Of a stretch of 64,000 nt of DNA, positions 38,342 through 57,921 are shown piece after piece. The notes below the pieces were generated by a model. The model was not told the DNA's origin. It ran no database searches and was given only the letters and a program-made list of their open reading frames with translations. Both the position numbers and the translations under genes were made by a program. This DNA is from Caldithrix abyssi DSM 13497 (GTDB lineage: Bacteria > Calditrichota > Calditrichia > Calditrichales > Calditrichaceae): assembly GCF_001886815.1 (NCBI RefSeq), contig NZ_CP018099.1, forward strand, positions 2,292,501 to 2,356,500. The letters run 5' to 3'. Each line of letters opens with the position of its first letter. The first letter of the stretch is position 1.

Positions 38342-38347
38342 AAAGTG

Positions 38348-39712: not shown

Positions 39713-40725
39713 AAAAACAACGAAAAATAACCATTGCGGATATTGCTCGTGAGGCAGGCGTTTCGGCCATGACCGTTTCGCGGTATTTGAATGGCAAAGG
39801 CCCGGTTGCCGCTTCAACGGCCGAGCGCATCAAAGCCATCATTGAACGGCTGCAATACAACCCCAACTGGCTGGCGCGTAGCCTGTCCAGTAAAAAAAGC
39901 ATGATCATTGGCGTCACCATTCCGCGCATCGAGCATGCTTTACTGGATAATTACATCGCCCAGATTCTATCCGGCGTAACCGATGTAGCCTTACAAAACG
40001 ATTATCGCATCATGCTGTTGCCGTTTAATCCCGAACACGGAACGGACAACGAATTTAGTAACTGGTACCATAGTAAAATGTTTGACGGACTGATTCTGTT
40101 AAAAACCATGCATCGTGATCCGCGTATTAAATCTCTGGCTGAACAAAAAATTCCTTTTGTGCTGGCCAACCACAAGTATTACGCGCCCGATGTCCACTTT
40201 ATTGATGTTAACAACAAACTGGGCATCCGTCTGGCCGTCGAATATCTGGTGGAAAAAGGTCGTTCCCGAATCGCTTTTGTGGCCGGCGATCTGCGCGAAA
40301 CCAACGCCCGCGATCGATGGAACGCATTTTGCAAAACCATGCAGGAGCAGAACTTAACCGTAAACAAAGAATGGGTCATGCACGGTCAGTTCAATCAGGA
40401 AATTGCCTACCGCGAATCGGAGAAGTTGTTTCGGGCCAAAACGATTCCCGATGCCGTCGTTTGTTCCGACGATTACATGGCCCTCGGTGTGATACGCAGG
40501 ATAAAAGAAAGGGGCTTGCGCATTCCGGACGATGTGGCCGTCATTGGCTTTGACGACATCGAAATAGCGGCCTACATTCAGCCGGCTCTGACAACCGTGC
40601 GTCAGCCCATCGAAAAAATTGGTCGCCTGGCTGCGGAGTCGTTATTGAAATTGTTGAATGGTAAAGCAGACCAACCCATACGGCGTTTATTGAGCGTGCA
40701 ATTAATCAAACGGGAATCGGCCTGA
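39709..40725 (+). CDS. LacI-family transcriptional regulator
   Basis: 338 residues. The N-terminal helix-turn-helix and hinge helix are clear (ITIADIAREAGVSAMTVSRYLNGKGPVAASTAERI, then LQYNPNWLARSLSSKKS). A periplasmic-binding-protein fold follows (about 63-335: IGVTIPRIEHA, AVEYLVEKGRSRIAFVAGD, DAVVCSDDYMALGVIRRIKERGLRIPDDVAVIGFDDIE). It is the last gene of the operon and overlaps the chitinase gene by 4 bases (ATGA). The palindromes over the 31389-31412 promoter are its likely operator; the inducer may be glucosamine, N-acetylglucosamine or a disaccharide. Autoregulation follows from the arrangement. Confidence 0.9.
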   Translation: MKKQRKITIADIAREAGVSAMTVSRYLNGKGPVAASTAERIKAIIERLQYNPNWLARSLSSKKSMIIGVTIPRIEHALLDNYIAQILSGVTDVALQNDYRIMLLPFNPEHGTDNEFSNWYHSKMFDGLILLKTMHRDPRIKSLAEQKIPFVLANHKYYAPDVHFIDVNNKLGIRLAVEYLVEKGRSRIAFVAGDLRETNARDRWNAFCKTMQEQNLTVNKEWVMHGQFNQEIAYRESEKLFRAKTIPDAVVCSDDYMALGVIRRIKERGLRIPDDVAVIGFDDIEIAAYIQPALTTVRQPIEKIGRLAAESLLKLLNGKADQPIRRLLSVQLIKRESA

Positions 40726-40792: not shown

Positions 40793-41812
40793 TTGAACAA
40801 ATACCGGTTGATTTTAAAGATTTTACTGGTGTTTGTGATGGGCGGCGGCCCCGTTTTCGCGCAACGCCTTATTCATTTTGCCGGGGTGGATTGGTGGGTC
40901 AAAAACGGCGGCCCCTATGGTCCCGGCCCTAATTACTGGTCCGACAGCGCGCAAAATGTGTGGATCGATGCGCAGGGGAGATTGCACCTGGCCATTCGAA
41001 AAGTAAATGATATCTGGTATTGTTCCGAAGTGTACACCGTCAAGCCTACCACCTTCGGAGAACACCGTTTTCTGGTTGATGGTTACATTGATCGCATGGA
41101 TAAGAATATCGTGCTGGGCCTGTTTGTTTACGCCGACGATCAGGCGGAGATCGATATTGAATATGCCAAATGGGGCTATCAGAACAAAACGGATGTGGGG
41201 AGCTACACCGTACAGCCCTATTCCACGCCCGGCAATCAATATAGTTTTGAAAGCCCCTTAGATAGTTCGAAAAACACGCATTTTTTTGACTGGCAGCCCG
41301 AATACGTTCTGTTTGGCAGCATGCGCGGCCATTACTACGGCGCGCCGCCCTCGTCTAACTATTACATCGCTCAGTGGGCTTACAATGGCGCGGACAATCC
41401 TTCCGCTTCCCGGCAGCTACACACACACATCAATTTCTGGCTTAATCAGGGACAGGCGCCGCAAGACCTTTCCATACTTGAGGTTATTATTACAGACGTT
41501 GTACAACCTTTAAATACCAGCGCCCTGAAAGGTGAAGAAAAATTACCTCTTGCCGTGGAACTCCGGCAAAACTTCCCAAATCCCTTTAATTCCTGGACTA
41601 CCATTGAATATGCTATCATTCAAGCGACCAGAGTTACCCTGAGCGTGTTCAATATTAACGGAGAAAAAATAAAAGAACTGGTCAACAGGCGGCAAAAGCC
41701 GGGCGTTTACCAGCTGCGATTTGACGCACAGAATTTGCCATCGGGAATGTATTTTTATCAACTAAAAACAGAAATCTTTACCGAAAGACGTAAGATGTTA
41801 ATCATTAAATAA
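40793..41812 (+). CDS. Secreted GH16 (lichenase-type) beta-glucanase with T9SS-type domain
   Basis: 339 residues from a TTG start with a strong GGGAGGAGGGGAG ribosome site. Signal peptide about 1-23. Residues about 30-240 form a beta-jelly-roll: the GH16 catalytic motif E-x-D-x-E is EIDIE with Glu119, Asp121 and Glu123, the lichenase/xyloglucanase spacing rather than the laminarinase ExDxxE. Substrate is likely a mixed-linkage or xylo-beta-glucan. The C-terminal domain reads RQNFPNPFNSWTTIEYAI...SGMYFYQLKTE. It lies just after the LacI gene, 67 bases downstream, and may start the beta-glucan cluster. Confidence 0.78.
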   Translation: MNKYRLILKILLVFVMGGGPVFAQRLIHFAGVDWWVKNGGPYGPGPNYWSDSAQNVWIDAQGRLHLAIRKVNDIWYCSEVYTVKPTTFGEHRFLVDGYIDRMDKNIVLGLFVYADDQAEIDIEYAKWGYQNKTDVGSYTVQPYSTPGNQYSFESPLDSSKNTHFFDWQPEYVLFGSMRGHYYGAPPSSNYYIAQWAYNGADNPSASRQLHTHINFWLNQGQAPQDLSILEVIITDVVQPLNTSALKGEEKLPLAVELRQNFPNPFNSWTTIEYAIIQATRVTLSVFNINGEKIKELVNRRQKPGVYQLRFDAQNLPSGMYFYQLKTEIFTERRKMLIIK

Positions 41813-41885: not shown

Positions 41886-44441
41886 ATGATTACGTATTTA
41901 CGTATCGTTTTTTTACTGATTGCTGTGCCACTAATGCTCAGCGCTCAGTATGTCATCAACAATTTCGACACATTGCCGGATTCCAACTATTTTAGTATTT
42001 ACGGCAATGAAGGCGTGAACCACACCTATCTCCATCTCTCTCTGGAAACGACAAACGTTTACGAAGGGGCTGGCGCCCTGCGCGTGGATTGGCAGAACGA
42101 ATGTTACGATATGTGGGGCGGCTGGATAGGCATGACGCACACCCATCCGGATTCGGGGCAGACGTACGATTTTTCGCCATATACGCATTTATCCATATGG
42201 TATTATAATGAAGTTCCTCAGTCCAAGTCTGGTGAAGTTGAGTTCAGAATTATTTTGAATGATGCCGGGCCAGGTACGGACGAAGCTTCCGGACAATACG
42301 AGATCTGGATTTCGCATCACTGGATTTTAGACAATGCTCCGGGATGGAATCAAATTGAGGTTAAGCTGGAAGATGTGGGAATGATGAGCGACCAGGGATT
42401 CTGGAATCCCGGTTGGGGGCAGGCAGCAGAAGGAAATGGCATTCTTGATCTGGATAAGATTAAAGGATGGACGCTGGAGTTTTCTCAGGGCAATGCGTTG
42501 TATCAGCAACCGGATGATACCGTTTCCGGTGTGATTATTCTGGATGATTTTAAAGCGACGGGAGTGGCGCCGATGAATCTGGTGTTTTTTAATGGCAAAG
42601 CCGTGCCCTCAAATGTGAACATGCACACCGGTTGGAGCGGTTCTGTAGAAGTGACCCAGGAAGACGACGCAGCCAATCAGGGAACGGGCTGCATTAAATG
42701 GAATGGGGGCGCTGCCTGGGACGGCGTTAATTTTGATCTGGCGCAGGCCAAAAATTTGATGAACAACTGGGCAACCGATTCGCTGCAATTGAAAATCAAA
42801 GCGCCAGCCGGAACCGGCGACCTGACGCTGGTCTTCTGGGATACCGATGAAGACACAGGCAAGGTTGACTACGCCTTTCAGGCCACCTTTTTACTTACGG
42901 AAAGCGAGATGGGTTATGACGGCACCTGGAAATCGGTCAAAGTGGCTTTGAGCGATTTTAATCGTTTCGCCGGCGTCTGGGATAACGACCTGGGGCAGAT
43001 GGTTGACGGCGAATTCGATTCCACCAGAGTGGCCGGTTTTGGCATCTGGAGTAATGGTCAGGATTTAAGCGGAACGACGATTTACCTGGATGATATCTGG
43101 ACGGGCAATCCGGAATTTGACTTTGTGCCGCCGGCGCAAGTCACGGGCGTTGCCGCGGCGACCGGCGACTATTACAATCTGGTTTACTGGACGGACGTGG
43201 AAGGCGAAAACGGCGAAGTTTACAATGTGTACGCCAGCGAAAAACCGATTACCGATCTCAGCGATCCTGCTGTGGAGGTGGTGGCCACGGGGATTGTCGA
43301 AGGCGAACAAAATGCCGTACATGAGTTGATCTTTCCCTTAAACGATCATCCGGTAACCTATTACTACGCTGTGGAATGCGTTGACGCTGCCGGTAATGTA
43401 GGGCCGGCCGGCATCAGCGACGCCGTGACCAATACGGCCAGAGGCGTGCCGACCATTGCGGATCATGCGCCTCCCAATTTTGCCGCCGACGGCGATTTCT
43501 CAGAATGGGAGAATGTTATGCCCTGGGTGTTAATGCCTTCACAAAATAATATTGCGGCCGGCGATTTTACCGGTGATGACGATTTAACCGCTACCGTATG
43601 GCTGGCCATGGACAACGATTATTTATACGTGGCTGCCGATGTGGCTGATGAAGTCTTTTCTTATGACGCCAATCTGGTTAATACCTGGTGGACTCAGGAT
43701 GCCTTTGAATTGTTTATCGGATTATGGGATCAAAACGGAAAACCGGTTCATAATTCCACGCCAGAAAATAGCCGTGGCGAGGAGCCCGATTATAAACTGA
43801 TCTTCTTGCAAGATCGTTACTACAATGAATACAAAAATACGTACCTGGGGCGGGGAAGCGATCCTGAACTGACCCCGAACGATGCTAACTACTATTTTGA
43901 AGAATTTGGCGGAAGAGACTGGGCGCTGGAAGCCAGAATTGCGCTGGATTCTATTGCTTTTGGAAATGACCAGCGTTTTTATCCGCAACGCGGCATGCGC
44001 ATCATGTTCGATCTCGTGTTTCATGATAATGATGGCAGTGGCTGGGAAGGTAATTTAAGCTGGTCGCCCAATAATCGTGATTTGGCCTATTTAAATCAGC
44101 ATGAATGGACGCACACCTGGATCGGCGACACCACGCACACGGCAACCGCCATCGAAAAGGACGGCGGCTCTGTGGCCAATTCCTTCAGCTTAAAACAAAA
44201 TTATCCCAATCCGTTCAATCCGCTTACGACCATCGAATATTCCATTCCCAAAACGGCAGACGTACAGTTAACGGTTTACAACATTCTGGGACAAAAGGTT
44301 GCAGAGCTGGTTGATCAAAAACAAAACGCCGGTTTTTATCGCGTAACGTTAAACGGCCACAACCTGCCCTCGGGCGTCTATTTTTATGAATTGAAAGCCG
44401 GTTCGTTTGAACAGGTGCGTAAAATGCTTCTTGTAAAATAA
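41886..44441 (+). CDS. Secreted multi-CBM protein with CBM9-like and T9SS-type domains
   Basis: 851 residues. Signal peptide about 1-20. Two jelly-roll modules (about 24-225 and 232-415) each end in DDF/DDI-type strands (VIILDDFKATG; IYLDDIWTG) typical of carbohydrate-binding folds. A fibronectin-III segment (about 420-515) follows, then a CBM9/DOMON-like module (about 525-755: ADGDFSEWENVMPWVL, LYVAADVADEV, WTQDAFELFIGLWD). The last 85 residues are the sorting domain (LKQNYPNPFNPLTTIEYSIP). No catalytic site is seen; probably a surface glycan-binding protein that works with GH16, GH3 and GH5. AAGGAGG precedes the ATG. A strong terminator follows. Confidence 0.8.
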   Translation: MITYLRIVFLLIAVPLMLSAQYVINNFDTLPDSNYFSIYGNEGVNHTYLHLSLETTNVYEGAGALRVDWQNECYDMWGGWIGMTHTHPDSGQTYDFSPYTHLSIWYYNEVPQSKSGEVEFRIILNDAGPGTDEASGQYEIWISHHWILDNAPGWNQIEVKLEDVGMMSDQGFWNPGWGQAAEGNGILDLDKIKGWTLEFSQGNALYQQPDDTVSGVIILDDFKATGVAPMNLVFFNGKAVPSNVNMHTGWSGSVEVTQEDDAANQGTGCIKWNGGAAWDGVNFDLAQAKNLMNNWATDSLQLKIKAPAGTGDLTLVFWDTDEDTGKVDYAFQATFLLTESEMGYDGTWKSVKVALSDFNRFAGVWDNDLGQMVDGEFDSTRVAGFGIWSNGQDLSGTTIYLDDIWTGNPEFDFVPPAQVTGVAAATGDYYNLVYWTDVEGENGEVYNVYASEKPITDLSDPAVEVVATGIVEGEQNAVHELIFPLNDHPVTYYYAVECVDAAGNVGPAGISDAVTNTARGVPTIADHAPPNFAADGDFSEWENVMPWVLMPSQNNIAAGDFTGDDDLTATVWLAMDNDYLYVAADVADEVFSYDANLVNTWWTQDAFELFIGLWDQNGKPVHNSTPENSRGEEPDYKLIFLQDRYYNEYKNTYLGRGSDPELTPNDANYYFEEFGGRDWALEARIALDSIAFGNDQRFYPQRGMRIMFDLVFHDNDGSGWEGNLSWSPNNRDLAYLNQHEWTHTWIGDTTHTATAIEKDGGSVANSFSLKQNYPNPFNPLTTIEYSIPKTADVQLTVYNILGQKVAELVDQKQNAGFYRVTLNGHNLPSGVYFYELKAGSFEQVRKMLLVK

Positions 44442-44805: not shown

Positions 44806-47580
44806 ATGAACAGATTTCTACACTTAATCTCAGGACTTTTACTGCTGAGTGTTTCAATGATGTATGCCCAGACAACCGGTAAAATTGCCGGGTTCGTTTT
44901 TGACGAGAGAACGTCTGAGCCTTTGCCTGGCGCCAATATTTATCTGGATGGTACGAGCCTGGGCGCTGCTTCGGGACTGGACGGCAGTTTTTACATCATT
45001 AATGTTTCTCCCGGCAAATATAATGTGGTAGTGGAAATGGTTGGCTACGAAAAAAAGATCATTAAAGATGTGCGCGTTTCCGTCAACCGCACCACCAACT
45101 TAAAAATCACTTTAAAAGAAGCGATCCTCGAAGGCGAAGTGATTGTGGTTGAAGCCGATAAGATGAGCATTAAAAAAGATCAGACCAGCGCCGTGCGCAC
45201 GGTATCTGCCGATCAGATGGAAGCTCTGCCGGTCGAAAATTTAAATGCGGTCGTCGGCCTTCAGGCCGGGGTTGTGCGCGGACACTTCCGCGGCGGGCGT
45301 AGCAATGAAGTCTCGTACATGATCGACGGATTGCAGGTGAACGACGCTTTTGGCGGTGAAGGGCGGCGCGTGGATGTGGAAACCGAGTCCGTGCAAGATG
45401 TGGAAATCATTACCGGCACCTTTAACGCCGAGTACGGGCGGGCCATGAGCGGCGTGGTTAATGCCATCATTAAAGACGGAACGGATGATTTCCATTTTTC
45501 TTACACCAACTACCTGGCTAACTATGTGACCAATCACGACGACATCTTTATCGGATTAAAAGAGAGCGAAATCACCAGGAACCAGGACTATAAACTACAG
45601 CTCAGCGGGCCCATTCTCAAAAGAAAGCTCCACTATTTTACGAACCTCCGTTACCAGGACAACAAAAACCACCTGAACGGCATTCGTCGTTTTCGCGTCA
45701 ACGATTTCAGTGATTTTACATCCACCAATCCTGAGGAATGGTATTCCGAACACACGGGCGATAATGCTTACGTGCCCATGAACAGTTCAAAAACTCTCTC
45801 TTTGCTTGGTAAAATCTCTTACAAAATGACCGATCAAATCAAACTCTCTTTACTGTACACTGGCAACCGGGACGAGTGGAAAAGTTATGATCATGCCTTT
45901 AAATACAATCCAGACGGCCAGGCCAGTCACCATCGTCAATCGGATATGTTTGCGCTACTTCTGAATCAGGCTTTTTCCAATAGCGCCTTTTACGAATTAA
46001 AACTTTCGTCATTGGATAGTTATTACGGATTCTATTTGTTTAAAGATCCTACCGATTCCGGCTATGTGTACGACGCCTTTTTAGCCAACATCAATGAAAC
46101 GGGTTTTTACACTGGCGGCCAGATGAAAGATCACACAGAAAACTGGCAAAAAGAGACAAATATAAAATTTGACTTTACCTGGCAAGCCACCTCTCACCAT
46201 TCGTTAAAGACCGGCTTTTTGTACACGCTGTACGATCTTAAAAATAAATGGACGCCTGTCCGACCCGACACCACTATGAGCGAAGAAGAGCTGGGACTTT
46301 TTTACTACGATGAAACCGGTCATCGCGTGTACTACAACTATAAACCGATCGTTTATCCGTCCAACTCCGTTTATTCCGATATCTACCATGTAAAACCGAT
46401 CGCCTTTTCAGCCTACATTCAGGACAAGATGGAATACGAAGACATGGTCATTAACGCCGGCATTCGTTTCGATTATTTTGATCCAAATACCACCTATCCT
46501 TCCAACTGGCGTAATCCGGCCAATCAATTAAATTTTTATTTAAAAGATGAAGACGGCAATTTGATTCTGGATGAAAACGGCAATCCCCTCTTGAATCCCG
46601 AGCGCATGTCAACCTATCCAAAGGCAGATATCAAAACGCAAATCAGTCCGCGCCTGGGGCTGGCTTATCAGCTTGGCAAAAAGGCCGTTCTCCACTTTAG
46701 TTACGGACACTTTTTTCAGATGCCGCCCATGTACGCTTTGTATCAGAACAATTCGCATCAGATTCCACCCAGCGATTATTCTACAACCCTGGGCAATCCG
46801 CAATTAAAAGCCCAGAAAACCGTACAATATGAGGTGGGGTTGTGGCAAGAAGTGGTCGAAAACATGGGGCTGGAAGTTAACCTCTTTTATCGCGATATTT
46901 ACGACCTGTTGAGCACCAAAATAGTTTCCACTTATAATCAAATCGAATATGGTTTGTACACCAACAAAGATTACGGCAATGCGCGCGGCATTGAATTAAA
47001 GTTTGATTTCTACCGCGGTCCGTTGCAGATTTTCGTCAATTACACGTTGCAATACACGCGCGGCAATGCGGATAATCCTGAACAAACCTTTACGCGGGCC
47101 GGCGCCAGTATGGATCCCATCCCCACGCTCATTCCCATGAGCTGGGATCAACGGCACACGTTCAATGCCACGGTGGGCTATCACAAGGGCAATGTGGGCG
47201 CCACCTTAACCGGCTATTACAATTCCGGCACGCCTTACACCTGGACGCCCATTGTACTTAATCCCGTCTCCCGCGTAAATCTGTTTCCCAACAACGATTA
47301 CATGCCCAGTTCTTATTCGGTCGATTTCTTTTCTTATTACAAATTCAAACTATTCAAGTCGATTCAGGCTCAAATCGAACTTTCAATCTACAATCTGTTT
47401 GATCGTCTTAATCCGGTTTGGGTTTATGGCTCTACCGGACAGCCATACACAGCCGTTATTCAGGAATCCGATCTTTCTAATCATCGCAGCGATTTTAATG
47501 ATTATGAAGATCGAATTAAAAATCCATCGGCTTACTCAGCGCCGCGTATGGTTAAATTAGGTATTGGTTTTACATTTTAA
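44806..47580 (+). CDS. TonB-dependent receptor with carboxypeptidase-regulatory N-domain
   Basis: 924 residues. Signal peptide about 1-21. Residues about 24-105 form the CarboxypepD_reg-like domain (GKIAGFVFDERTSEPLPGANIYL), typical of SusC-type receptors. The plug domain follows (about 115-230: LPVENLNAVVGLQAGVVRGHFRGGRSNEVSYMIDGLQVND, FNAEYGRAMSGVVNAIIKDG), then a 22-strand barrel ending in the aromatic-terminated strand VKLGIGFTF. It lets a large substrate enter the periplasm with energy from TonB. A SusD partner is normally encoded next to SusC; here the next gene is a giant secreted protein. No TonB box is obvious. AAAGAGGA before the ATG. Confidence 0.9.
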   Translation: MNRFLHLISGLLLLSVSMMYAQTTGKIAGFVFDERTSEPLPGANIYLDGTSLGAASGLDGSFYIINVSPGKYNVVVEMVGYEKKIIKDVRVSVNRTTNLKITLKEAILEGEVIVVEADKMSIKKDQTSAVRTVSADQMEALPVENLNAVVGLQAGVVRGHFRGGRSNEVSYMIDGLQVNDAFGGEGRRVDVETESVQDVEIITGTFNAEYGRAMSGVVNAIIKDGTDDFHFSYTNYLANYVTNHDDIFIGLKESEITRNQDYKLQLSGPILKRKLHYFTNLRYQDNKNHLNGIRRFRVNDFSDFTSTNPEEWYSEHTGDNAYVPMNSSKTLSLLGKISYKMTDQIKLSLLYTGNRDEWKSYDHAFKYNPDGQASHHRQSDMFALLLNQAFSNSAFYELKLSSLDSYYGFYLFKDPTDSGYVYDAFLANINETGFYTGGQMKDHTENWQKETNIKFDFTWQATSHHSLKTGFLYTLYDLKNKWTPVRPDTTMSEEELGLFYYDETGHRVYYNYKPIVYPSNSVYSDIYHVKPIAFSAYIQDKMEYEDMVINAGIRFDYFDPNTTYPSNWRNPANQLNFYLKDEDGNLILDENGNPLLNPERMSTYPKADIKTQISPRLGLAYQLGKKAVLHFSYGHFFQMPPMYALYQNNSHQIPPSDYSTTLGNPQLKAQKTVQYEVGLWQEVVENMGLEVNLFYRDIYDLLSTKIVSTYNQIEYGLYTNKDYGNARGIELKFDFYRGPLQIFVNYTLQYTRGNADNPEQTFTRAGASMDPIPTLIPMSWDQRHTFNATVGYHKGNVGATLTGYYNSGTPYTWTPIVLNPVSRVNLFPNNDYMPSSYSVDFFSYYKFKLFKSIQAQIELSIYNLFDRLNPVWVYGSTGQPYTAVIQESDLSNHRSDFNDYEDRIKNPSAYSAPRMVKLGIGFTF

Positions 47581-47593
47581 AAGAGGTGGATCG

Positions 47594-50500
47594 ATGATGA
47601 AAATAAAATTGAATGTAGCGTTTTTTGTAATCATGCTCTTTGCCTTGAATATGGCATTAATAGCGCAGGATCATGGTAAAATTTACGAAGGGCCGGATGA
47701 TCCGGCGGGCGATATTGAAGCCGAACGCGAGGGCTACATGAACGGCAACCGCATCCTGCTTTATTTTCAGAACACGACCGAACTGGCCAAATGGACGCCC
47801 ACCTACAGAGGCTCGCAGTGGTCGCGCTGGCCCAATACTTACGACGGCGTACGCATGTTAGACGGCATTGCCCTGTTGATCGGCGCCAAAGTGTACATCA
47901 AAAACGATTCCATTCCTGTTACCGATTTTGAGGCTATTGCCAATGGCCAGTATGACGATGTGTTGTATTACCTGCAGACCAGCTATCGGGAAGAGATGGA
48001 TCGTAATCCGACAGGCACGGTGGAATGGGGATTGTACCCGGTTTATGGCTATTTCAACGAACTGAGCGAATATCCGGCCATGAGCAATCACAAGGAATCG
48101 TGGCCTCCGGCCGGATGGCCATCCACCGGGCGCTCTTTGAAATGGCCGGGCGAATGGAACGGTCGCTTTGGGCGCGGGGTCATTTATGCCGATCTGGAAA
48201 CCTATTTTGTAGCCAACGACGCTCAAGACCTGGAATATTTGGGGCCGGACGATCGCGTTAAATACTATCCGAGGCGTAAATACGATGCGCAGGGAAATAT
48301 TATTCAGGATATTCGCATCGGCGATATTCGACCCGAAGTCAGCATCCAGAAAGGCGAGCCCTGGGGCGGCCTGGGAATTCGCGTGGAACAGCGCGGCTTT
48401 CAATGGAACAACCCGCAAGCGCGCGACGCCATCTTCTGGGAATACAATATTGCCAATATTTCCGAATATACCCTGCCGGAAGTGGCTTTTGGTTACTGGG
48501 TGGATAACGGCATCGGCGGCGAATCGGACGACGAATTAGGGTATTTTGACACCAAAATCGATATGGCCTATTCCTGGGATAAAGACGGTAAGGGCGAGGC
48601 CGGCAAACCCACCGGCACCATGGGATTCGCCTACCTGGAATCGCCGGGCATCCCTTATGACGGCAAAGACAATGATGAGGATGGACTGGTGGACGAAAGG
48701 CGGGATAATCCCACGGCCGGCGAATTTGTGGGACCCTATGATGGGATCGATAATCTGGAGAATTTCCTTGATTTTTACAATTTGAAAGAAGAAGACCTGC
48801 GCCCACACTGGTCCAGCGATGAAGACCAGGACTGGGAAGACGGCAACGACCTGAACGGCGACGGCGTTTATCAAGCCAATGAGTATGCCGGCGACGATGT
48901 GGGACTGGATGGCGTTGGCCCGCAAGAATTAAACTACACCGGTCCCGACGAAGGAGAATGCAACCACATGCCCGATTACAAACAGGGCGTGGGCTGCGAG
49001 CCCAACTACAACGCCACCGACGTAAGTGAATCGGATATGGTCGGTCTTACCTCCTTTTACATGTTTCCCGTTCCCCAACATAATCCGCCGTACACGCGCT
49101 GGTTTCGCAACGATCAATCGATGTGGGAATTAATCGGTCAGGACAGTCTGGTAGAATATCTGGGCAATATTTCTAATTTAATCGAAACGTTTGCATCCGG
49201 GCCGTTTCCCCTTTACCAGGGCAGAGAAGAACGCATCTCTATGTCCGAATTGCACTCGTTTGACGCGCTGGAAGGATTGAACTCCGATGAGCACTCGGCT
49301 CCCGCTTTGTACGAGGTTAAACGCATTGTGCAGGTTATTTACGAAAAAGACTACCGATTTGCCCAGCCGCCTAAAATGCCTACTTTAACGGCTACGCCCC
49401 TGGACGGCAAAGTCATTTTAACCTGGGACAATGTGGCCGATACCAGAACGCGCGATCCGTTTCTGGGCAACGTTAATGATTTTGAAGGATACAAACTGTT
49501 TCGAGCAACCGATAAAAAGATGTCGGACGCGCAGGTCATTACCGATGGATTTGGCAATCCCATTTACCTGAAGCCTATTTTTCAATGCGATTTAAAAGAC
49601 GGCATTCAGGGCTTTGCCGATTATGGCGCCATTAACGGTATTCAGTACAATCTGGGCTACGACACCGGCATCGTACACCACTTTGTGGACGAAAATGTGC
49701 AAAACGGGCGTACCTATTACTATGCCATTGTGGCTTACGATTACGGCGCGCCGCATATTGGCCCGGGCATTGCGCCTTCGGAGAACAATATTGTCATCGA
49801 ACTGGATGAGGCGGAAGAGATCCGCCGCCTGGAAGACGGTTCGCTGGCCATTGGTCCCAATGTGGCCGTGGTAACGCCGCGTCAGGACGCCGCCGGTTAC
49901 GTGCCGCCTTCGATCGATCAACAGGATGATCAACCGATTCTGGGCACCGGTAAGATCGAACCAGAAATTTTAGCGCGCAACAGTTTAAAAATCGATCATA
50001 CTTATAAAGTTAAGTTTCAGATCGACACCTTGCTCGATGTGCCATATTACGATTTTGCCATTCGCTACACGACCAATGGACTGCGCATTTACGATGTAAC
50101 CGATGGCAATAAACTGGTTTACGAAGAGACGCCGGAAAATTATGCTTACAGCAATCTGGTTTATCGTGACACCCTGGATTACTGGACTTTAAAAACAGGC
50201 AAAACCATCAGCACCGATATTTTCGACGGCCTGCGGCTTAACATCACCCAGGAGGTGGAGCTGGCCGAATTTGACGCGCGTAAATCCGGCTGGTTAAACG
50301 GCGACGCGCCGCTGATTATCAATCCAGCTTCTGACGATAACCTTGTGATGCCCTGGGACTATGAAATCGTCTTTACGGCAAACGATTCCGCTTATGTGGG
50401 GCGCGTAAACAGTCAACACATCAGAGACGAGCAAAATGTTAGAATTAACCGTACCAAATTATTATTCCATCAGAATTTTAATTTCTACGTTTTGAATAAA

Positions 50501-51112
50501 TCTTTCATGGATTCCGCCGGCAATTATTTAAAGATGGACCTGGTGGTGGAAGATCGAAACTATAACCGCCAGTTTGATATCGAAGATCGCATACTGGTTG
50601 GCGATCTGAACACGCGCGGCTATTGGGCGGCAACGGCTTTTTCTTTTGAATTTGCGACATCGGATAGCGCCGACCTGCCGCAAGCGGACGATGTGTATCG
50701 TGTTTATCATAAACGGCCATTCTGGATTTCCGACTCCGTGACGTTCACAGTTAAGCCGGAGGGCGCGCTGAATGAAACGGTATTAAAATCGACCATGGAT
50801 GACATAAAAGTGGTGCCCAATCCCTACATTGCCACCAACGCCATGGAACCGGCCGTGGCCAATCCCTTTTTAAACCAACGCCGAAGACTGATGTTTACGC
50901 ACATCCCGGCGCAGTGCACCATCAAAATTTTTACGGTAAGCGGCGTGCTGGTGGATCAGATTGACGTACAAAACGAACCGAGTAACGGCATTGTGCACTG
51001 GGATTTGAAAACAAGAGAAGGATTGGATGTGGCCGCCGGCATGTACATCTATCATGTAAAATCTTTGAAAACCGGCGATGAAAAAATCGGCAAATTTGCC
51101 ATCATTAAATAG
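47594..51112 (+). CDS. Giant secreted protein with fn3 and variant C-terminal sorting domain
   Basis: 1172 residues from the ATG at 47594 (AAGAGGTGG before it; the longer frame from 47564 would overlap the receptor). Signal peptide about 1-22. The region near residues 290-340 (GYWVDNGIGGESDDELGYFD) resembles a module of the 12449 protein. Asp-rich loops (DNDEDGLVDER, DLNGDGVYQANEY) may bind calcium. A fibronectin-III segment lies at about 595-710 (ATPLDGKVILTWDN). The C-terminal 100 residues (VVPNPYIATNA, LMFTHIPAQCTIKIFTVSG, GLDVAAGMYIYHVKS) are a divergent sorting domain. Function unknown; it stands where SusD would be, so a substrate-capturing or surface-anchoring role is inferred. Confidence 0.7.
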   Translation: MMKIKLNVAFFVIMLFALNMALIAQDHGKIYEGPDDPAGDIEAEREGYMNGNRILLYFQNTTELAKWTPTYRGSQWSRWPNTYDGVRMLDGIALLIGAKVYIKNDSIPVTDFEAIANGQYDDVLYYLQTSYREEMDRNPTGTVEWGLYPVYGYFNELSEYPAMSNHKESWPPAGWPSTGRSLKWPGEWNGRFGRGVIYADLETYFVANDAQDLEYLGPDDRVKYYPRRKYDAQGNIIQDIRIGDIRPEVSIQKGEPWGGLGIRVEQRGFQWNNPQARDAIFWEYNIANISEYTLPEVAFGYWVDNGIGGESDDELGYFDTKIDMAYSWDKDGKGEAGKPTGTMGFAYLESPGIPYDGKDNDEDGLVDERRDNPTAGEFVGPYDGIDNLENFLDFYNLKEEDLRPHWSSDEDQDWEDGNDLNGDGVYQANEYAGDDVGLDGVGPQELNYTGPDEGECNHMPDYKQGVGCEPNYNATDVSESDMVGLTSFYMFPVPQHNPPYTRWFRNDQSMWELIGQDSLVEYLGNISNLIETFASGPFPLYQGREERISMSELHSFDALEGLNSDEHSAPALYEVKRIVQVIYEKDYRFAQPPKMPTLTATPLDGKVILTWDNVADTRTRDPFLGNVNDFEGYKLFRATDKKMSDAQVITDGFGNPIYLKPIFQCDLKDGIQGFADYGAINGIQYNLGYDTGIVHHFVDENVQNGRTYYYAIVAYDYGAPHIGPGIAPSENNIVIELDEAEEIRRLEDGSLAIGPNVAVVTPRQDAAGYVPPSIDQQDDQPILGTGKIEPEILARNSLKIDHTYKVKFQIDTLLDVPYYDFAIRYTTNGLRIYDVTDGNKLVYEETPENYAYSNLVYRDTLDYWTLKTGKTISTDIFDGLRLNITQEVELAEFDARKSGWLNGDAPLIINPASDDNLVMPWDYEIVFTANDSAYVGRVNSQHIRDEQNVRINRTKLLFHQNFNFYVLNKSFMDSAGNYLKMDLVVEDRNYNRQFDIEDRILVGDLNTRGYWAATAFSFEFATSDSADLPQADDVYRVYHKRPFWISDSVTFTVKPEGALNETVLKSTMDDIKVVPNPYIATNAMEPAVANPFLNQRRRLMFTHIPAQCTIKIFTVSGVLVDQIDVQNEPSNGIVHWDLKTREGLDVAAGMYIYHVKSLKTGDEKIGKFAIIK

Positions 51113-51153
51113 GCAGCGATTTTTAAAGTTTAAAAGTCAAATGGAGTGATAGA

Positions 51154-52209
51154 ATGGAAAAAAGAATTTGCACCATATTTTTGTTCGTGTTCCTGTCGTT
51201 TACGTTAAGCTTTGGGCAAAAACCGTATCGTGTGGGAACAACGGCCGCCAACTTTCTGGAAATCGGATACGGTTCCGCAGGCAGCGCCATGGGAGACGCC
51301 TGCGTGAGCTCGGTGAGCGATGTTTCTGCGGTTTATTGGAATCCGGCGGCGCTGGCCTTTTTGCAAAAGAACGAGGCGCAGTTTGTCTTTCAACCATGGA
51401 TTGCCGATATTTCCACGGCTTTTGTGGCCACCAGCGTCAACATCGCCAACATTGGCACCCTGGGCTTTCATCTGATTCATGCTGGTTACGGAAATATCGA
51501 GGTGACCAATTTGAACGCGCAGGAGGGCACGGGCGAATTTTACAGCGCCGACGAATATGCTTTTGGCATCACTTACGCCCGACAACTAACCAACTGGTTC
51601 TCCTTCGGCGCTACCGGAAAATTCATCGCCTCTAAAATCTGGCACGTTTCGGCCAGCGCGCTGGCCCTGGACCTGGGCGTGGTCGTTCAAACGCCGTTCT
51701 TTTCCACAACCGGGCAACGAAAGGATGGCCTGCGCGTGGCCATGAGCATCGCTAATTACGGTTCGCGTATGCGCTACGACGGCCTGGATCTGGTCTATCC
51801 CATCGATCCTTTGCCCGACGAAAACGGCAACTATGCCGATGTGCCCGGTCAATACCGCCTCTCTTACTGGGAATTGCCGCTCATCTTTCGCATCGGCGCC
51901 TCGCTGGATGTGGTTAAAGCGGAGCATCACACGCTTACCCTGGAAGTGGACGCCCTGCATCCCAACAACAACTCCGAATCGGTGAACATCGGAGGTCAGT
52001 ACGCTTTTAAAATACCCACCACCGGCGTGTTCTTTTTGCGCGGTGGATTTAAAGGCCTGTTCATGGATGAATCGCAATACGGTTTAACCCTGGGACTGGG
52101 AATGATTAAGTATTTGATGAACAATATTAGCCTTAAAGTGGATTACGCCTTTAGAGACGTTGGCATTCTGGGCAACGTACACAGCTATTCAATCGGCATT
52201 GTATTTTGA
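51154..52209 (+). CDS. PorV/PorQ-like outer-membrane protein
   Basis: 351 residues. Signal peptide about 1-21. The start of the mature protein (FLEIGYGSAGSAMGDACVSSVSDVSAVYWNPAALAFLQKNEAQF) is the hallmark of the PorV/PorQ/UPF0164 family of FadL-like 14-stranded barrels. In the type IX system PorV moves cargo from the translocon to the attachment machinery. The C-terminus (YSIGIVF) is a barrel terminal strand. It follows the 1172-residue gene by 41 bases and overlaps the next frame, indicating one operon with the receptor and suggesting a dedicated paralogue for this cargo. Confidence 0.85.
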   Translation: MEKRICTIFLFVFLSFTLSFGQKPYRVGTTAANFLEIGYGSAGSAMGDACVSSVSDVSAVYWNPAALAFLQKNEAQFVFQPWIADISTAFVATSVNIANIGTLGFHLIHAGYGNIEVTNLNAQEGTGEFYSADEYAFGITYARQLTNWFSFGATGKFIASKIWHVSASALALDLGVVVQTPFFSTTGQRKDGLRVAMSIANYGSRMRYDGLDLVYPIDPLPDENGNYADVPGQYRLSYWELPLIFRIGASLDVVKAEHHTLTLEVDALHPNNNSESVNIGGQYAFKIPTTGVFFLRGGFKGLFMDESQYGLTLGLGMIKYLMNNISLKVDYAFRDVGILGNVHSYSIGIVF

Positions 52210-52232
52210 AAGAGCGGAGAGGTGATCAATCG

Positions 52233-53780
52233 ATGAACAGAGTTTCGAAATTTATTTTAATTGTGGCTGGCTTTGCCCTGGCTGGCGTCGCCCTGGCTGG
52301 CATCGTCGTTTTTCTCTCGTGCGCCAAAAAAGAGGCCACACACAAAGAGACTCTTGTGGCCCGTGTAAAGGACAGAACCATTTCGGTAAACGAGTTTATT
52401 CGTCGAGCGGAATACACCATCCGTCCGGCTTACTGTCGGGGCGACAATTACATCCATCGTAAAATTGTTCTCAATTCGCTCATAGCCGAAAAACTAATGG
52501 CTCTGGAAGCCGGCGAAAATAATGAATTGACAAACAATCATGAATTTCAGCAATATCTATTGGGCCGAAAAGAGCAGGCCATGCGTCAGTGGCTGTTTTA
52601 CGAAGTAGGCATCAGACCGGTAAAATTAGATACCGCAGAAATACGCAGACTTTACAGCGTGGCAGGTCGCGTGTACCGTGTTTCCTTTCTTAACTGTCCC
52701 GACCATGAAACCGCCCATGACATTTACCGAAAACTGACCGTGGGCAAGATTTCCTTTGAACAGATGGCCAGAGAGCTCAGCGCAAAGAAAAATGTTCCGC
52801 AAAAAGAGATTAAATTCGATGCGCCCGAGCCGGATGTGGTGCACCAGGCCCTTTACGAGCCTTCGATTAAAAAAGGCCAGCTCATTGGACCGTTGGAAGT
52901 GGCCCCCGATAGCTACGTGATTTTACGCGTCGATGGCTGGCGCTCTTATCCGGCGTTAACCGACCAGCAGCAAGCCGATCGTTTAAAACAGGTAAAAGAT
53001 AAGCTCACCGAACGGCAGGCCATTGCCCGCTACGAAAAATTCATCGGCCAATTAATGGGCGATAAAAAACTTCAATTTAATCCAGAAATATTTAAGCGTC
53101 TGGTGAATATCCTGGGGCCAGAATATTTTAAGACGGAAAAAGAAAAAAAAGAGATGTTCAACAAAAAATTCTGGAATAAGGATAACGAAATGATGGTGCG
53201 CAAAAACGGCCTGGAGCAATTAGGCGAAATGGCCGGCCAGACCTTTTTTACCATTGATGGCCAGGCCTGGACGGTGGAAAGATTCATGGATCATTTGCAA
53301 CGCCATCCTCTGGTTTTCAGGAGAAAAAAGTTTCCCCAGAACCAATTTGCCCGGCATTTCAGACAGGCAGTGGCCGATATGATTCGCGACTACTATCTTA
53401 CCCGGGTCGCCTATGAGCGGGGCTACGATAAAATCCCCGAAGTGCAACGCTATGAGCAGATGTGGAAAGATAATTTGCTGGCGCTTTACCACAAAAAACA
53501 ATACCTGGATCGGCATGACATTAAAGGCAAAAAAGGCATGGCCATCATCAAAGAGGTGCTGGATCCCTATGTTGCGCAGTTGCGTCAAAAATACCAGGAT
53601 CAAATCGAAATTAATACCGATGCTTTTGAAAAGATTAAACTTACGCGCATCGATATGTTTGCCATTCAACCCAATCAGGCCTTTCCGGTGGTTGTGCCTT
53701 CTTTTCCGCAACTAACCACGCACAACATGCTGGACTATGGCAGAAAAATGGATTATCCGGAATCCGGAAAAGATTTGTAA
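52233..53780 (+). CDS. SurA/PpiC-like lipoprotein chaperone
   Basis: 515 residues from the ATG at 52233 (GGAGAGGTG upstream; the earlier in-frame ATG at 52206 overlaps the previous stop). A hydrophobic segment ends in a lipobox-like VFLSC. The layout is a SurA-like helical module (ARVKDRTISVNEFIRRAEYT), a degenerate parvulin domain at about 165-270 (YRVSFLNCPDHETAHDIYRKLTVGKISFEQMARELSA...GQLIGPLEVAPDSYVILRVDGW) and a long helical C-terminus. The parvulin core lacks the typical NGGDLG motif, so it may be a chaperone rather than an isomerase. Like the 16462 protein it neighbours T9SS-type cargo. Confidence 0.75.
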   Translation: MNRVSKFILIVAGFALAGVALAGIVVFLSCAKKEATHKETLVARVKDRTISVNEFIRRAEYTIRPAYCRGDNYIHRKIVLNSLIAEKLMALEAGENNELTNNHEFQQYLLGRKEQAMRQWLFYEVGIRPVKLDTAEIRRLYSVAGRVYRVSFLNCPDHETAHDIYRKLTVGKISFEQMARELSAKKNVPQKEIKFDAPEPDVVHQALYEPSIKKGQLIGPLEVAPDSYVILRVDGWRSYPALTDQQQADRLKQVKDKLTERQAIARYEKFIGQLMGDKKLQFNPEIFKRLVNILGPEYFKTEKEKKEMFNKKFWNKDNEMMVRKNGLEQLGEMAGQTFFTIDGQAWTVERFMDHLQRHPLVFRRKKFPQNQFARHFRQAVADMIRDYYLTRVAYERGYDKIPEVQRYEQMWKDNLLALYHKKQYLDRHDIKGKKGMAIIKEVLDPYVAQLRQKYQDQIEINTDAFEKIKLTRIDMFAIQPNQAFPVVVPSFPQLTTHNMLDYGRKMDYPESGKDL

Positions 53781-53794
53781 AGGAGATAAATCAG

Positions 53795-56044
53795 ATGAAA
53801 AAACTACATCTACTTCTGGCGATCTGGTTGCTTATCTTTTATGCAGCAGGCTCTTTATTTTCTGCGCCAAACGATGAAATTGAAAAGAAGATTCAAACTT
53901 TGCTCAGTCAGATGACCTTAAAGGAAAAAGTGGGGCAGATGACGCAAATTACCCTGGAAGTAGTTTCTTTGAAACGGCCGGACGGGTCTTTTGTGAACAG
54001 CCTGGATGAGAACAAATTAAGACAGGCGATTGTCGAATATGGTATCGGTTCCATCATAAATACCGGCGGAGCGGCGAATACAGCCCGAAATTGGCTGGAG
54101 ATGATAACCATCATGCAAAAAATGGCCACCCAGGAAACGCGGCTGGGTATTCCCATACTTTACGGAATCGACGCCATTCACGGGTCGAATTACATCAAAG
54201 AAGCTACGCTTTTTCCGCAGAGCATCGCCATGGCGGCTACCTTTAACAGGCAACTTTCACGCAGAGAAGGCGAAATTACGGCGTTGGAGACCAGAGCGGT
54301 CGGCATTCCGTGGAATTTTAATCCGGTACTTGGGCTGGGACGGAATCCTCTGTGGCCGCGTTTCTGGGAAACCTATGGCGAGGATGTGTACCTGACTTCA
54401 GAAATGGGCAGAGCGTACATTCTGGGCTTGCAGGGCGAAGATGGCGACATCTCCAGGGCGGATCGCGTGGCGGCCTGCATGAAACATTACGCCGGTTATA
54501 GCTTTCCTCTTTCCGGGCACGATCGTACGCCGGCTTGGATTCCGGAACGCCTCATGAGGGAGATGTTTCTCACGCCTTTTAAAAGCGCCGTGGATGCCGG
54601 GGTTTACACAGTAATGATCAATTCCGGCGAAGTCAACGGCGTTCCGGCCCATTCAAGCGCCTTTTTATTAACGCGCGTTTTAAGAGAAGAATGGGGCTTT
54701 AAAGGATTGGCCGTCAGCGACTGGGAAGACGTTAAACGCCTGCACGACCGCGACCATGTGGCTGCCTCGCCCGAAGAAGCCGTGAAAATGGCGGTTATGG
54801 CCGGTCTGGATATGAGCATGGTGCCCTTTGATTTCTCCTTTGCCGAATATCTTTATCAGCTCGTTAAAAAGGGCGAAGTTCCCGAAACCCGCATTGACGA
54901 CGCTGTGGCCAACATTTTACGCGTTAAATTTCAGGCCGGACTCTTTGAAAATCCCTTTCCCGATCCGCAAAGGCTGCAACTGATCGGCAAACCTGAATTT
55001 GCGCAGGTTAGCCTGAGCGCCGCCCGCGAAGCCATTACTCTACTGAAAAACGAAAATAACATTTTGCCCCTACAAAAGGATGTTAAAATTCTGGTTACCG
55101 GTCCCACAGCCAATTCCAGAGCCTATTTAAATGGCGGCTGGACGTACACCTGGCAGGGGGACGACGAGCGCTATTATCCCGCGCATTATAAAACCATCTT
55201 ACAGGCCATTACCGAAAAAGCAGGTCAGCGGAACGTGGTTTACGTACAGGGCGCTGACATTGAAACACAAAAGGATATGGGCGAGGCCGTTCAAAAAGCC
55301 CGAGATGTGGATGTAATCGTTGCCTGCTTGGGCGAAGCGACCTATTGTGAAACGCCCGGGAATATCAATGATTTGCATTTGCCTGCAGTCCAGCGGGAGC
55401 TGATTCATCAACTGGCCAGAACCGGCAAACCCATTGTGCTGGTGCTGGTGGAAGGGCGGCCGCGTGTGATCAACGACATTGTTCCCAAAACAAAAGGCAT
55501 TTTAATGGCTTATCTGCCCGGACCTTACGGCTCCGAGGCCATCGCCGAAGCGCTGTTCGGAGAGGTAAATCCATCTGGCAAGCTGCCTTTTACCTATCCA
55601 AAACACGTTAATGATCTGGTTTGCTACGACCATACCTATCTCAAAGAATTTGACGTCAATCGTTACGATCCGCAATGGCCGTTTGGTTACGGATTGAGTT
55701 ACAGCGAATTTGAATACCGCAACCTGAAACTCAGCCAATCCAGAATCAAAAAAGGCGAGGCCCTGCAGATCAGCGTTGAGGTTGAGAACAGGGGAGAGCG
55801 CGCCGGCAAGGAGAGCGTTTTGCTGTACGTAAGCGATCTGTATCGCTCAGTAACCCCGCCGGTTAAACAACTTAAAGGATTTCAAAAGATAATGTTGCAG
55901 CCGGGGGAGAAAAGGGTCGTTACCTTTACTCTAACCGCCGATGATCTGGCCTTTGTGGGAAGGGACAATCAATGGATCGTCGAGCCCGGGGTTTTTAAGG
56001 TTCGTATTGGGGATCAAACGGCGCAATTTGAGCTGGTGGAATAG
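53795..56044 (+). CDS. GH3 beta-glucosidase
   Basis: 749 residues, 14 bases after the PpiC-like gene, with AAAGGAG before the ATG. Signal peptide about 1-23, so periplasmic or exported. The (beta/alpha)8 domain (about 30-390) contains ILYGIDAIHGSNY, ACMKHYAGYS and the nucleophile Asp309 in AVSDWED. The alpha/beta domain (about 400-640) contains the acid/base region LGEATYCETPGN. A fibronectin-like domain closes it (about 665-745). It should release glucose from short beta-1,3 or beta-1,4 glucans. It completes the cluster formed by GH16, GH5 and the symporter. No T9SS domain. Confidence 0.93.
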   Translation: MKKLHLLLAIWLLIFYAAGSLFSAPNDEIEKKIQTLLSQMTLKEKVGQMTQITLEVVSLKRPDGSFVNSLDENKLRQAIVEYGIGSIINTGGAANTARNWLEMITIMQKMATQETRLGIPILYGIDAIHGSNYIKEATLFPQSIAMAATFNRQLSRREGEITALETRAVGIPWNFNPVLGLGRNPLWPRFWETYGEDVYLTSEMGRAYILGLQGEDGDISRADRVAACMKHYAGYSFPLSGHDRTPAWIPERLMREMFLTPFKSAVDAGVYTVMINSGEVNGVPAHSSAFLLTRVLREEWGFKGLAVSDWEDVKRLHDRDHVAASPEEAVKMAVMAGLDMSMVPFDFSFAEYLYQLVKKGEVPETRIDDAVANILRVKFQAGLFENPFPDPQRLQLIGKPEFAQVSLSAAREAITLLKNENNILPLQKDVKILVTGPTANSRAYLNGGWTYTWQGDDERYYPAHYKTILQAITEKAGQRNVVYVQGADIETQKDMGEAVQKARDVDVIVACLGEATYCETPGNINDLHLPAVQRELIHQLARTGKPIVLVLVEGRPRVINDIVPKTKGILMAYLPGPYGSEAIAEALFGEVNPSGKLPFTYPKHVNDLVCYDHTYLKEFDVNRYDPQWPFGYGLSYSEFEYRNLKLSQSRIKKGEALQISVEVENRGERAGKESVLLYVSDLYRSVTPPVKQLKGFQKIMLQPGEKRVVTFTLTADDLAFVGRDNQWIVEPGVFKVRIGDQTAQFELVE

Positions 56045-56259: not shown

Positions 56260-57921
56260 ATGAGTGCGATAGGCCTGACATTTATTGATTGGATCGTCAT
56301 TGCCATTTATTTTGCCTTTGTGCTGGGCATTGGCCTTTACTTAAAACGCTTCACCAAAACACAGGAAGATTTTTTTCTTGCTGGAAGAAAAAACAACTCG
56401 TGGGTAGCCGGTCTGGCTTTTCTTTCTGCCAATCTGGGCGCCCTGGAATTGATGGGCATGACCGGCAATACTTTTAAATACGGAATGTTTGTCGCGCATT
56501 TTTACTGGATCGGCGCCATCCCGGCCATGCTTTTCCTTGGCATTTACATGATGCCGTTTTACTACAGCAGCCGAATCAGTTCGGTGCCGGGATACTTAAA
56601 ACTGCGTTTTGACGAGAAAACGCGCGTTTTAAACGCCATCTCGTTTGCCGTGATGACGCTGTTGGTTTCCGGCATTAATCTGTATGCCATGGCCCTTGTT
56701 TTACACACCTTTTTGGGCTGGAGCTGGGATGTGAGCATGTGGGCATCGGCTTTAACAGTGGCCATTTACGTCAGTTTGAGCGGTTTGATGTCCGCCATCT
56801 TTACGGAAATTATTCAATTCTTTTTGATCTGGTTTGGTCTGTTTTTAGTAACCATTATGGGCATTATTGAAATTGGCAGCGTGGAAGAGATTTTAGCTCG
56901 CGTGCCAGAATCTTTTAACACTCTGTGGTCCACCTCTGCCTCTGCTTCGCAAAATGGAATGATGATTACCTGGGGCGGCATTGTTCTGGGGCTTGGTTTT
57001 GTGCTCTCATTTGGTTATTGGACGACCGATTTTCTGGTTGTTCAGCGCGCTTTTTCGGCTAAAGATTTACGTAGTGCGCGTATGACGCCGATTCTCGCTT
57101 CCTTTTTCAAAATGGCCTTACCTTTCATCGTCATTTTTGGCGGATTAATCGCGTATGTTCTGGCGCATGATCCCCATTCCGGCTTTCAATTACTGCAGGA
57201 CGGCAATAAAATCAATTACGATTCGGCTTTGCCGTTGTTGATTGCGCGGTATTATCCCACCGGACTGATTGGGCTGGGCGTTACGGCTCTGCTGGCAGGC
57301 TTTATGGCCGGACAGGCCGGCAACATAAGCGCCTTTAACACTGTGTGGACTTATGACATTTACCGTTCGGTGATTAATAAGAAGGCGACAGACGAGCAAT
57401 TGTTATGGATGGGACGGGCGGCGACCATCGGCGGTATTATCCTCAGCGTAGGAACGGCTTACTGGGCAAAGAGCATGCCGACCATTATGGATTACATGCA
57501 AGCCATCTTTTCCTGGGTAAACGCGCCTCTTTTTGCTACCATGCTTTTAGGGATGTTTGTGCGCTGGATTACTCCAAACGGAGCCTTCTGGGGCTTACTG
57601 GCCGGAATGGTCTCTTCGTTTTCGCTTTTTATTGCCGTAAAATTTGACTGGTTGGCCAAAAATGTTATAACGCTAACCGATGTTTCCAGCGACATGGCTG
57701 CCAACTTCTGGCGCGCCTGGTGGGCCTGGTTGATTACTTTTGCCGTTACCGTTTTGGTTAGTTTTCACACAAAGAAAAAGCAAGACGAAGAACTGGTAGG
57801 ATTGGTGATCGGTTTAACCGAAGAAACAGTGGATCAGCCGGTGCCTCTGCTGAAAAAACCGGAATTCTGGGCTCTTATCTCATTAGTGGTTCTGGTGTTA
57901 TTAAATATTTACTTCTGGTAA
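56260..57921 (+). CDS. Sodium:solute symporter, SSS family (SGLT-like)
   Basis: 553 residues with about fourteen hydrophobic helices. The SSS pattern is clear: DWIVIAIYFAFVLGIGLYLKRFTKTQEDFFLAGRKNNSWVAGLAFLSANLGALE (first helix and SSS signature, Na2 region), PGYLKLRFDEKTRVLNAISF and LLAGFMAGQAGNISAFNTVWTYDIYR (signature helix). It imports a sugar or related solute with sodium across the inner membrane. Context between GH3 and GH5 points to glucose. It is followed 15 bases later by a small membrane protein gene. Confidence 0.9.
   Translation: MSAIGLTFIDWIVIAIYFAFVLGIGLYLKRFTKTQEDFFLAGRKNNSWVAGLAFLSANLGALELMGMTGNTFKYGMFVAHFYWIGAIPAMLFLGIYMMPFYYSSRISSVPGYLKLRFDEKTRVLNAISFAVMTLLVSGINLYAMALVLHTFLGWSWDVSMWASALTVAIYVSLSGLMSAIFTEIIQFFLIWFGLFLVTIMGIIEIGSVEEILARVPESFNTLWSTSASASQNGMMITWGGIVLGLGFVLSFGYWTTDFLVVQRAFSAKDLRSARMTPILASFFKMALPFIVIFGGLIAYVLAHDPHSGFQLLQDGNKINYDSALPLLIARYYPTGLIGLGVTALLAGFMAGQAGNISAFNTVWTYDIYRSVINKKATDEQLLWMGRAATIGGIILSVGTAYWAKSMPTIMDYMQAIFSWVNAPLFATMLLGMFVRWITPNGAFWGLLAGMVSSFSLFIAVKFDWLAKNVITLTDVSSDMAANFWRAWWAWLITFAVTVLVSFHTKKKQDEELVGLVIGLTEETVDQPVPLLKKPEFWALISLVVLVLLNIYFW

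Follow-up and report, generated by a model that had tools for sequence, protein, structure and literature searches.

How does a bacterium capture the large substrates of its TonB-dependent receptors when the SusD lid familiar from the Bacteroidota is missing? The question is raised by a four-gene cassette of Caldithrix abyssi DSM 13497, located in a 64,000-nucleotide stretch of its genome (contig NZ_CP018099.1, positions 2,292,501 to 2,356,500, forward strand; hereafter the window). Four open reading frames (ORFs), all on the + strand and encoding a TonB-dependent receptor, a giant secreted protein (the giant), a PorV-like protein, and a PpiC-like lipoprotein, were confirmed at window positions 44806-53780, the same places as in an earlier note made from the letters of this DNA. 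They very probably constitute one operon, because the intergenic gaps are short or negative. Our findings demonstrate that receptor, giant, and PorV paralogue form a unit that recurs across phyla, and that the C-terminal domain (CTD) of the giant, alone among its parts, covaries with the extracellular loops of its own PorV. We consider it reasonably probable that the giant is exported by the type IX secretion system (T9SS), anchored by PorV, and acts as a capture protein beside its own TonB receptor, functionally like SusD.

Recurrence of the cassette in other genomes

An alignment of seven giants, used to scan the species genomes of GTDB, retrieved 79 loci, distributed over Calditrichota, Neomarinimicrobiota, KSB1, Melioribacteraceae and other Ignavibacteria, Rhodothermales, Stahlbacteria, and unclassified Bacteroidetes. 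Most of these loci had the order receptor-giant-PorV, and a PpiC gene lay within 8 kb in about half. As a fairer test, 159 further giants were chosen by the giant profile alone and their surroundings were fetched. Among these sequence-picked giants, 143 of 155 had a TonB receptor as their immediate upstream neighbor, 146 of 158 had a PorV immediately downstream, and 144 of 154 had both partners within reach. Such linkage far exceeds what chance would give, and the two adjacency counts rule out a random neighborhood, a possibility that the earlier note had raised; the gene order that it had proposed to look for in relatives recurs for receptor, giant, and PorV. The PpiC-like lipoprotein, which had been counted as a fixed member, is optional and accompanies only 3 of the ~20 cassettes or giants of this genome. 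Permuted orders (PorV-giant or giant-receptor-PorV) were seen at four loci (L109, L113, L117, and L133), and the unit persists despite the changed gene order. No naturally fused version of receptor, giant, and PorV, which would have permitted modeling as a single chain, turned up.

A multicopy family that diverges jointly

The C. abyssi genome is a single contig of 4,978,541 bases, for which all genome-wide counts given here come from profile searches and fetched regions. It encodes ~20 distinct giant paralogues and 24 PorV-family genes above the curated cut-off. When gene order was read at every PorV-like gene, a giant adjoined a PorV at 15-16 places, nearly all of them with a receptor of the same clade just upstream, and giant/PorV loci account for 17 of the 30 TonB plug domains encoded in the genome. 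The cassette PorV paralogues cluster together in a tree of 31 fetched PorV-like proteins. Companions vary between cassettes, including an alpha-amylase, an M28 peptidase, and TIG/propeller lipoproteins, and these differences suggest one cassette per substrate.

Across the 13 complete cassettes, the pairwise distances computed for receptor, giant body, giant tail, and PorV are mutually correlated (r = 0.74-0.88; Mantel permutation p = 0.0002 for each, the smallest value attainable), the receptor and giant distances agreeing best (r = 0.88). This comparison was made within a single genome, where there is no species tree to confound the result. Receptor, giant, and PorV duplicate and diverge jointly, without partner exchange.

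Several loci add variations of their own. At L076/L077 (genome positions 979043-997418), three additional giants (1107, 1135, and 1117 residues) stand in tandem behind a cassette; they lack a receptor and a PorV of their own, have tails that extend beyond the usual end, and may share one anchor. A cassette sub-group at L067 and L069 (genome 305430-317191 and 3291499-3294375) has giants of 714-725 residues and extra lipoproteins, two of which combine TIG with a beta-propeller, that look like surface binding proteins. At L080 (genome 4202704-4215918), a PorV-family gene with a long extra C-terminal part (638 residues in total) adjoins a protein of >3700 residues with a sorting tail.

The receptor and the absence of SusD

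Pfam and NCBIfam models found a TonB plug, a barrel, and a CarboxypepD_reg-type N-terminal domain in the receptor, the domain layout expected of the receptor in a SusC/SusD pair. Its score of 62.7 bits against TIGR04056 (SusC/RagA) lies below the cut-off of 368.25, and the curated model thus does not uphold the earlier description of it as SusC type. It belongs to a different clade of TonB receptors with a CarboxypepD_reg domain, one with a partner of its own.

The SusD families PF07980, PF12771, and PF14322 gave zero matches in the whole 4.98-Mb genome, while a control Bacteroides genome was positive; the lack of SusD previously remarked on for the gene cluster therefore extends to the entire genome. 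A SusD hidden within or fused to the giant, an objection voiced in the same place, is ruled out by the predicted all-beta structure of that protein and by its lack of a match to any SusD family. Within the Calditrichota, 20 of 40 genomes have SusD, never in more than 3 copies, and 39 of 40 have giants, numbering 2-16 per genome. Among 35 other genomes with giants, 8 have SusD.

Fold and tail class of the giant

The giant matched no Pfam family. An AlphaFold2 model built with 77 aligned homologues (mean predicted local distance difference test score [pLDDT], 90.2; predicted template modeling score, 0.81) is all beta besides the signal helix and a few short helices. In this model the N-terminal half (residues ~40-590) is a super-beta-sandwich that superposes on dextran dextrinase (9ju0) over 258 residues at 3.0 Å (Z = 20.0), the next fold matches being GH94, GH116, and glucodextranase. 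Because the catalytic helical barrel of glycoside phosphorylases and hydrolases is missing from the giant, as judged by DSSP of the model, the predicted structure makes a binding rather than a catalytic role likely.

The CTD has the Ig-like fold of T9SS sorting domains, matching PorZ (5m11) over 90 residues at 2.1 Å with 26% identity (Z = 11.5). PorZ and PorU were the top Foldseek matches, and the NCBIfam models of the same two proteins outscored the type A tail model. The PorZ equivalog NF052228 matched the tail only, at 23.9 against a cut-off of 260. The type B tail model TIGR04131 and the PorP/SprF barrel gave no match at E values up to 0.01 for either the giant or its barrel. A tail profile trained only on other genomes separated 21 cassette tails, without overlap, from all other sorting tails in the fetched regions of this genome. 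From the NP motif to the end, cassette tails mostly measure 95-109 residues and canonical tails 77-88. Non-cleaved domains 96 and 108 residues long have been described, compared with 67-88 for cleaved ones, and an extra hairpin was found not to be decisive for cleavage (PMC11285876). Because length does not by itself decide cleavage, we can only infer, by analogy, that the tail of the giant stays uncleaved.

The PorV paralogue and its match to the tail

With 226.1 bits against PorV_fam NF033709 (cut-off 90), the PorV-like protein is a member of the PorV family. It scores 93.9 against NF033710 (cut-off 250) and 89.9 against NF033711 (cut-off 220), and is thus neither the general shuttle PorV nor PorQ. 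Its model (pLDDT, 91.6) has 14 strands, and the best fold match is the T9SS PorV with a substrate CTD (8gl6).

Mean-field coupling analysis of 228 giant-PorV pairs (193 effective sequences) gave a top z of 12.5 between tail and PorV and six pairs with z of at least 9, whereas random re-pairing peaked at 7.7 and 6.8. For PorV and six further stretches of the giants, which share phylogeny and pairing with the tail, the top z was only 5.4-6.7. Exchange of partners among relatives at 57% identity abolished the tail-PorV signal. Nearest-neighbor re-pairing at 70% kept much of it, as expected if close relatives share states, and phylogeny is not fully excluded by the re-pairing null alone. Of the top 10 PorV positions, 8 fall within extracellular loops (background, 23%) and all 10 are no more than four residues away from one (background, 41%), loop sides having been assigned from strand order and the C-terminal Phe, without a membrane model. 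In the solved translocon, these are the loops with which PorV holds CTDs (PMC10994853). For the pair 118-1072, two like charges were combined 2 times, against 42 expected, and co-change on the tree backs 118-1072, 338-1113, and 132-1150. The covariation with the CTD of its own giant bears out the suggestion that this PorV is locus specific. Export and anchoring of the giant are well supported, the anchoring may be permanent, and we regard attachment to the cognate PorV as highly likely.

The T9SS core is present in the genome: the translocon SprA is encoded (909.5 bits) with neighbors, as is PorU. SprA (L079, genome 3544717-3557751) is encoded close to a pair of adjacent PorV-family genes, which could be the housekeeping PorV/PorQ set, and to a 491-residue protein with a type A tail. 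The main PorU (genome 4539630-4542899) has no PorV paralogue beside it. A second, PorU-like protein of 1685 residues at L082 (genome 4422596-4428660; 225.6 bits, under the PorU cut-off) adjoins a PorV paralogue of its own.

Proposed mechanism

The observations support a model in which the giant, made with a signal sequence, would cross the outer membrane through the type IX translocon (SprA) by means of its CTD. The cognate PorV-family barrel would then capture the giant and hold it lastingly at the surface with the domain unremoved, much as PorQ retains PorZ, and PorV retains PorU, at the surface of Porphyromonas gingivalis (PMC5562754). There the super-beta-sandwich may capture the substrate of the locus, here a glycan, and hand it to the TonB receptor, taking the part that SusD plays for SusC. 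Breakdown products would pass to the symporter, and the exported glycosidases of the locus, with their ordinary type A tails, would use the general route. Where present, the PpiC lipoprotein, whose match to SurA_N_2 is weak, may help to fold or export the barrel or the giant. We rate the partnership of giant and receptor in uptake as somewhat better than an even chance.

Several points weigh against this model. Similarity of fold is no proof of function, and many super-beta-sandwich domains have a purely structural role. The tail scores 18 bits against the type A model TIGR04183, below the cut-off of 23. The pair with the best tail-PorV score, A84-I1165, is not backed by co-change counting (p = 0.5). 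The peptidases near some cassettes show that glycan is not the general substrate. Genome G051, one of the 8 other giant-bearing genomes with SusD and from a GTDB phylum in which 108 of 296 sampled genomes have giants, holds both a cassette and 16 SusD matches; SusD and the cassette can therefore coexist, and the cassette is no strict replacement. Finally, receptor-giant covariation in 179 trios gave nothing above background, leaving gene order and co-duplication as the grounds for the lid or docking step; at a depth this low for two such large proteins, the result neither supports nor refutes a contact. High receptor-giant scores at P1077 were rejected as the artifact of an almost invariant column.

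The missing receptor-giant signal, set beside the strong tail-PorV covariation, would also fit a giant that is a T9SS cargo with its own PorV as shuttle and anchor, acting alone as a surface binding protein, adhesin, or scaffold and adjoining the receptor only through a shared substrate. Tandem extra giants without their own receptor exist (L076/L077 and L102), and SprB and other type B cargo with cognate shuttles serve as adhesins (PMC12618676). However, the receptor is as constant a neighbor of the giant as PorV is (143/155 versus 146/158), and the agreement of receptor and giant distances exceeds what shared regulation would need. We therefore hold this alternative to be unlikely, at perhaps one chance in a few.

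The PorV paralogue could also be an assembly or transport barrel rather than an anchor, that is, a BamG-like platform for receptor insertion or a FadL-like channel. In the beta-barrel assembly machinery (BAM) of the Bacteroidota, the FadL-family protein BamG binds a surface lipoprotein by its extracellular loops (PMC12578637), which means that a FadL-family barrel can be a platform for a surface protein, and FadL channels come after T9SS PorV in the list of fold matches. Yet the best matches by both fold and sequence are T9SS PorV proteins (8gl6_F and 6h3i_F), and the covariation is with the sorting domain of the giant, not its body, leaving such a role very improbable.

One strong coupling was found between PorV and the receptor, V176-Y621 (z = 12.6; swap null, 8.1), with Thr accompanying Tyr and an aliphatic residue or Phe accompanying Phe; as one of ~270,000 pairs (p = 2.6e-7 before correction), it is after correction a lead only, and it could reflect barrels that sit side by side. 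This coupling, the match of the receptor to OMP_b-brl_4 (56.5 bits) besides the TonB barrel, and the dependence of PopC secretion on a TonB-dependent transporter (PMC6434023) would suit a receptor that forms part of the export route of the giant, like Oar for PopC in Myxococcus, with PorV then collecting the giant, but the genome has SprA and PorU and the giant a T9SS-type tail, so that a route exists, the neighborhood is catabolic, and the coupling is a single pair among so many, which makes this the least credible of the alternatives.

The capture model, if extended beyond this genome, would amount to a second architecture, independent of SusD, by which large substrates are imported with TonB power across the Fibrobacteres-Chlorobi-Bacteroidetes (FCB) superphylum: a non-cleaved CTD on a dedicated PorV beside the receptor, in a two-barrel complex in which secretion parts have been turned into an importer subunit. 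We offer this extension tentatively, as possible but short of an even chance.

Locus context

The surroundings of the cassette (Table 1), which also include a ROK kinase, form a glycan locus, by gene composition probably one for a beta-glucan-like polymer. Of 86 proteins flanking the cassettes of relatives, 16 have GH16, 12 CBM9, 7 malectin, and 4 GH3, and 33 carry type A sorting tails; GH30 is found around these cassettes as well. Elsewhere in the window, a 528-residue ORF (23640-25226, - strand) has the same length as identical-looking ORFs at genome positions 952018 and 4163661 and is probably a multicopy insertion-sequence gene.

Table 1. Cassette genes, predicted regions of the giant, and neighboring genes (window coordinates)
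Feature	Position	Strand	Remark
GH9 with T9SS-type tail	36284..38341	+	Locus context
GH18 with T9SS-type tail	38345..39712	+	Locus context
LacI-type regulator	39709..40725	+	Locus context
339-aa protein with canonical type A tail	40793..41812	+	Locus context
CBM9 protein with canonical type A tail	41886..44441	+	Found upstream of the receptor in other phyla too
TonB-dependent receptor, 924 aa	44806..47580	+	CarboxypepD_reg N-domain, plug, beta-barrel; under the curated SusC cut-off
Giant secreted protein, 1172 aa	47594..51112	+	~20 paralogues in genome; predicted T9SS-exported surface subunit
Giant residues ~40-590, predicted super-beta-sandwich	47711..49363	+	Fold as in N-domains of glycoside phosphorylases/hydrolases
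Giant residues ~595-740, Fn3-like region	49376..49813	+	Best conserved stretch among paralogues
Giant residues ~1061-1172, C-terminal sorting/anchor domain	50774..51109	+	PorZ/PorU-like; distinct from type A tails of the same genome
PorV-family 14-stranded barrel, 351 aa	51154..52209	+	Probable cognate shuttle/anchor of the giant; extracellular loops covary with its tail
SurA/PpiC-like lipoprotein, 524 aa	52206..53780	+	Start overlaps PorV stop; optional accessory
GH3 glycosidase	53795..56044	+	Locus context
Sodium:solute symporter	56260..57921	+	Locus context
GH5 cellulase-family glycosidase	58155..59195	+	Locus context

Significance

No description of the receptor-giant-PorV unit was found in the literature searched, which covered PorV paralogues, SusD-less loci, and Calditrichota TonB systems but few subscription papers or preprints. 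A text search of the Caldithrix abyssi genome paper turned up TonB receptors for cobalamin and thiamine only, and no mention of SusD or of a secretion system. There is a fair chance that the complex as a whole merits a name of its own. If the model is correct, it would explain polymer uptake in Calditrichota, Neomarinimicrobiota, KSB1, Ignavibacteria, and related groups, where SusD is often missing, and would provide names and roles for an unannotated giant family and for PorV paralogues in dozens of genomes. It would also extend the T9SS, with PorV-lineage barrels serving as multicopy, cargo-specific anchors besides the single general shuttle. Prediction of polysaccharide utilization loci (PULs) by SusC/SusD pairs would overlook these loci.

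Comparison with known systems

Like the SusC/SusD systems of Bacteroidota PULs, the cassette places a TonB receptor in a glycan locus with an obligate adjacent partner, here one predicted to be exposed at the surface, and exists in many paralogous copies per genome. It differs in that its genome is without SusD, its receptor is under the SusC cut-off, its partner, instead of an alpha-helical lipoprotein, is a large protein predicted to be all beta and bearing a T9SS-type tail, and the unit includes a third protein, PorV. The Oar/PopC system likewise links a TonB-dependent transporter to a secreted protein, but in the cassette an export role of the receptor is not indicated. To our knowledge, the Oar/PopC system has neither a T9SS tail nor a PorV partner.

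Closer parallels come from the T9SS itself. As in the PorZ:PorQ and PorU:PorV pairs of the P. gingivalis attachment complex, a PorZ/PorU-like CTD, by analogy non-cleaved, would be anchored one-to-one on a barrel of the PorV/PorQ family. PorZ and PorU, however, are machinery that occurs once, whereas a single genome here has 15-16 pairs, probably substrate specific, that are tied to TonB receptors and have a different N-terminal architecture. Each type B cargo has its own PorP/SprF shuttle, encoded directly downstream, while all type A cargo uses one PorV (PMC12618676). The cassette resembles SprB/SprF in that a barrel shuttle gene directly follows the cargo gene in multicopy, pair-specific units, and is unlike it in that tail and barrel are of the PorV/type A lineage, neither PorP/SprF nor TIGR04131 is matched, and a TonB receptor belongs to the unit. 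The cassette pairs thus combine the genetic logic of type B cargo with PorV-lineage barrels and PorZ/PorU-like tails, and add to these a TonB receptor.

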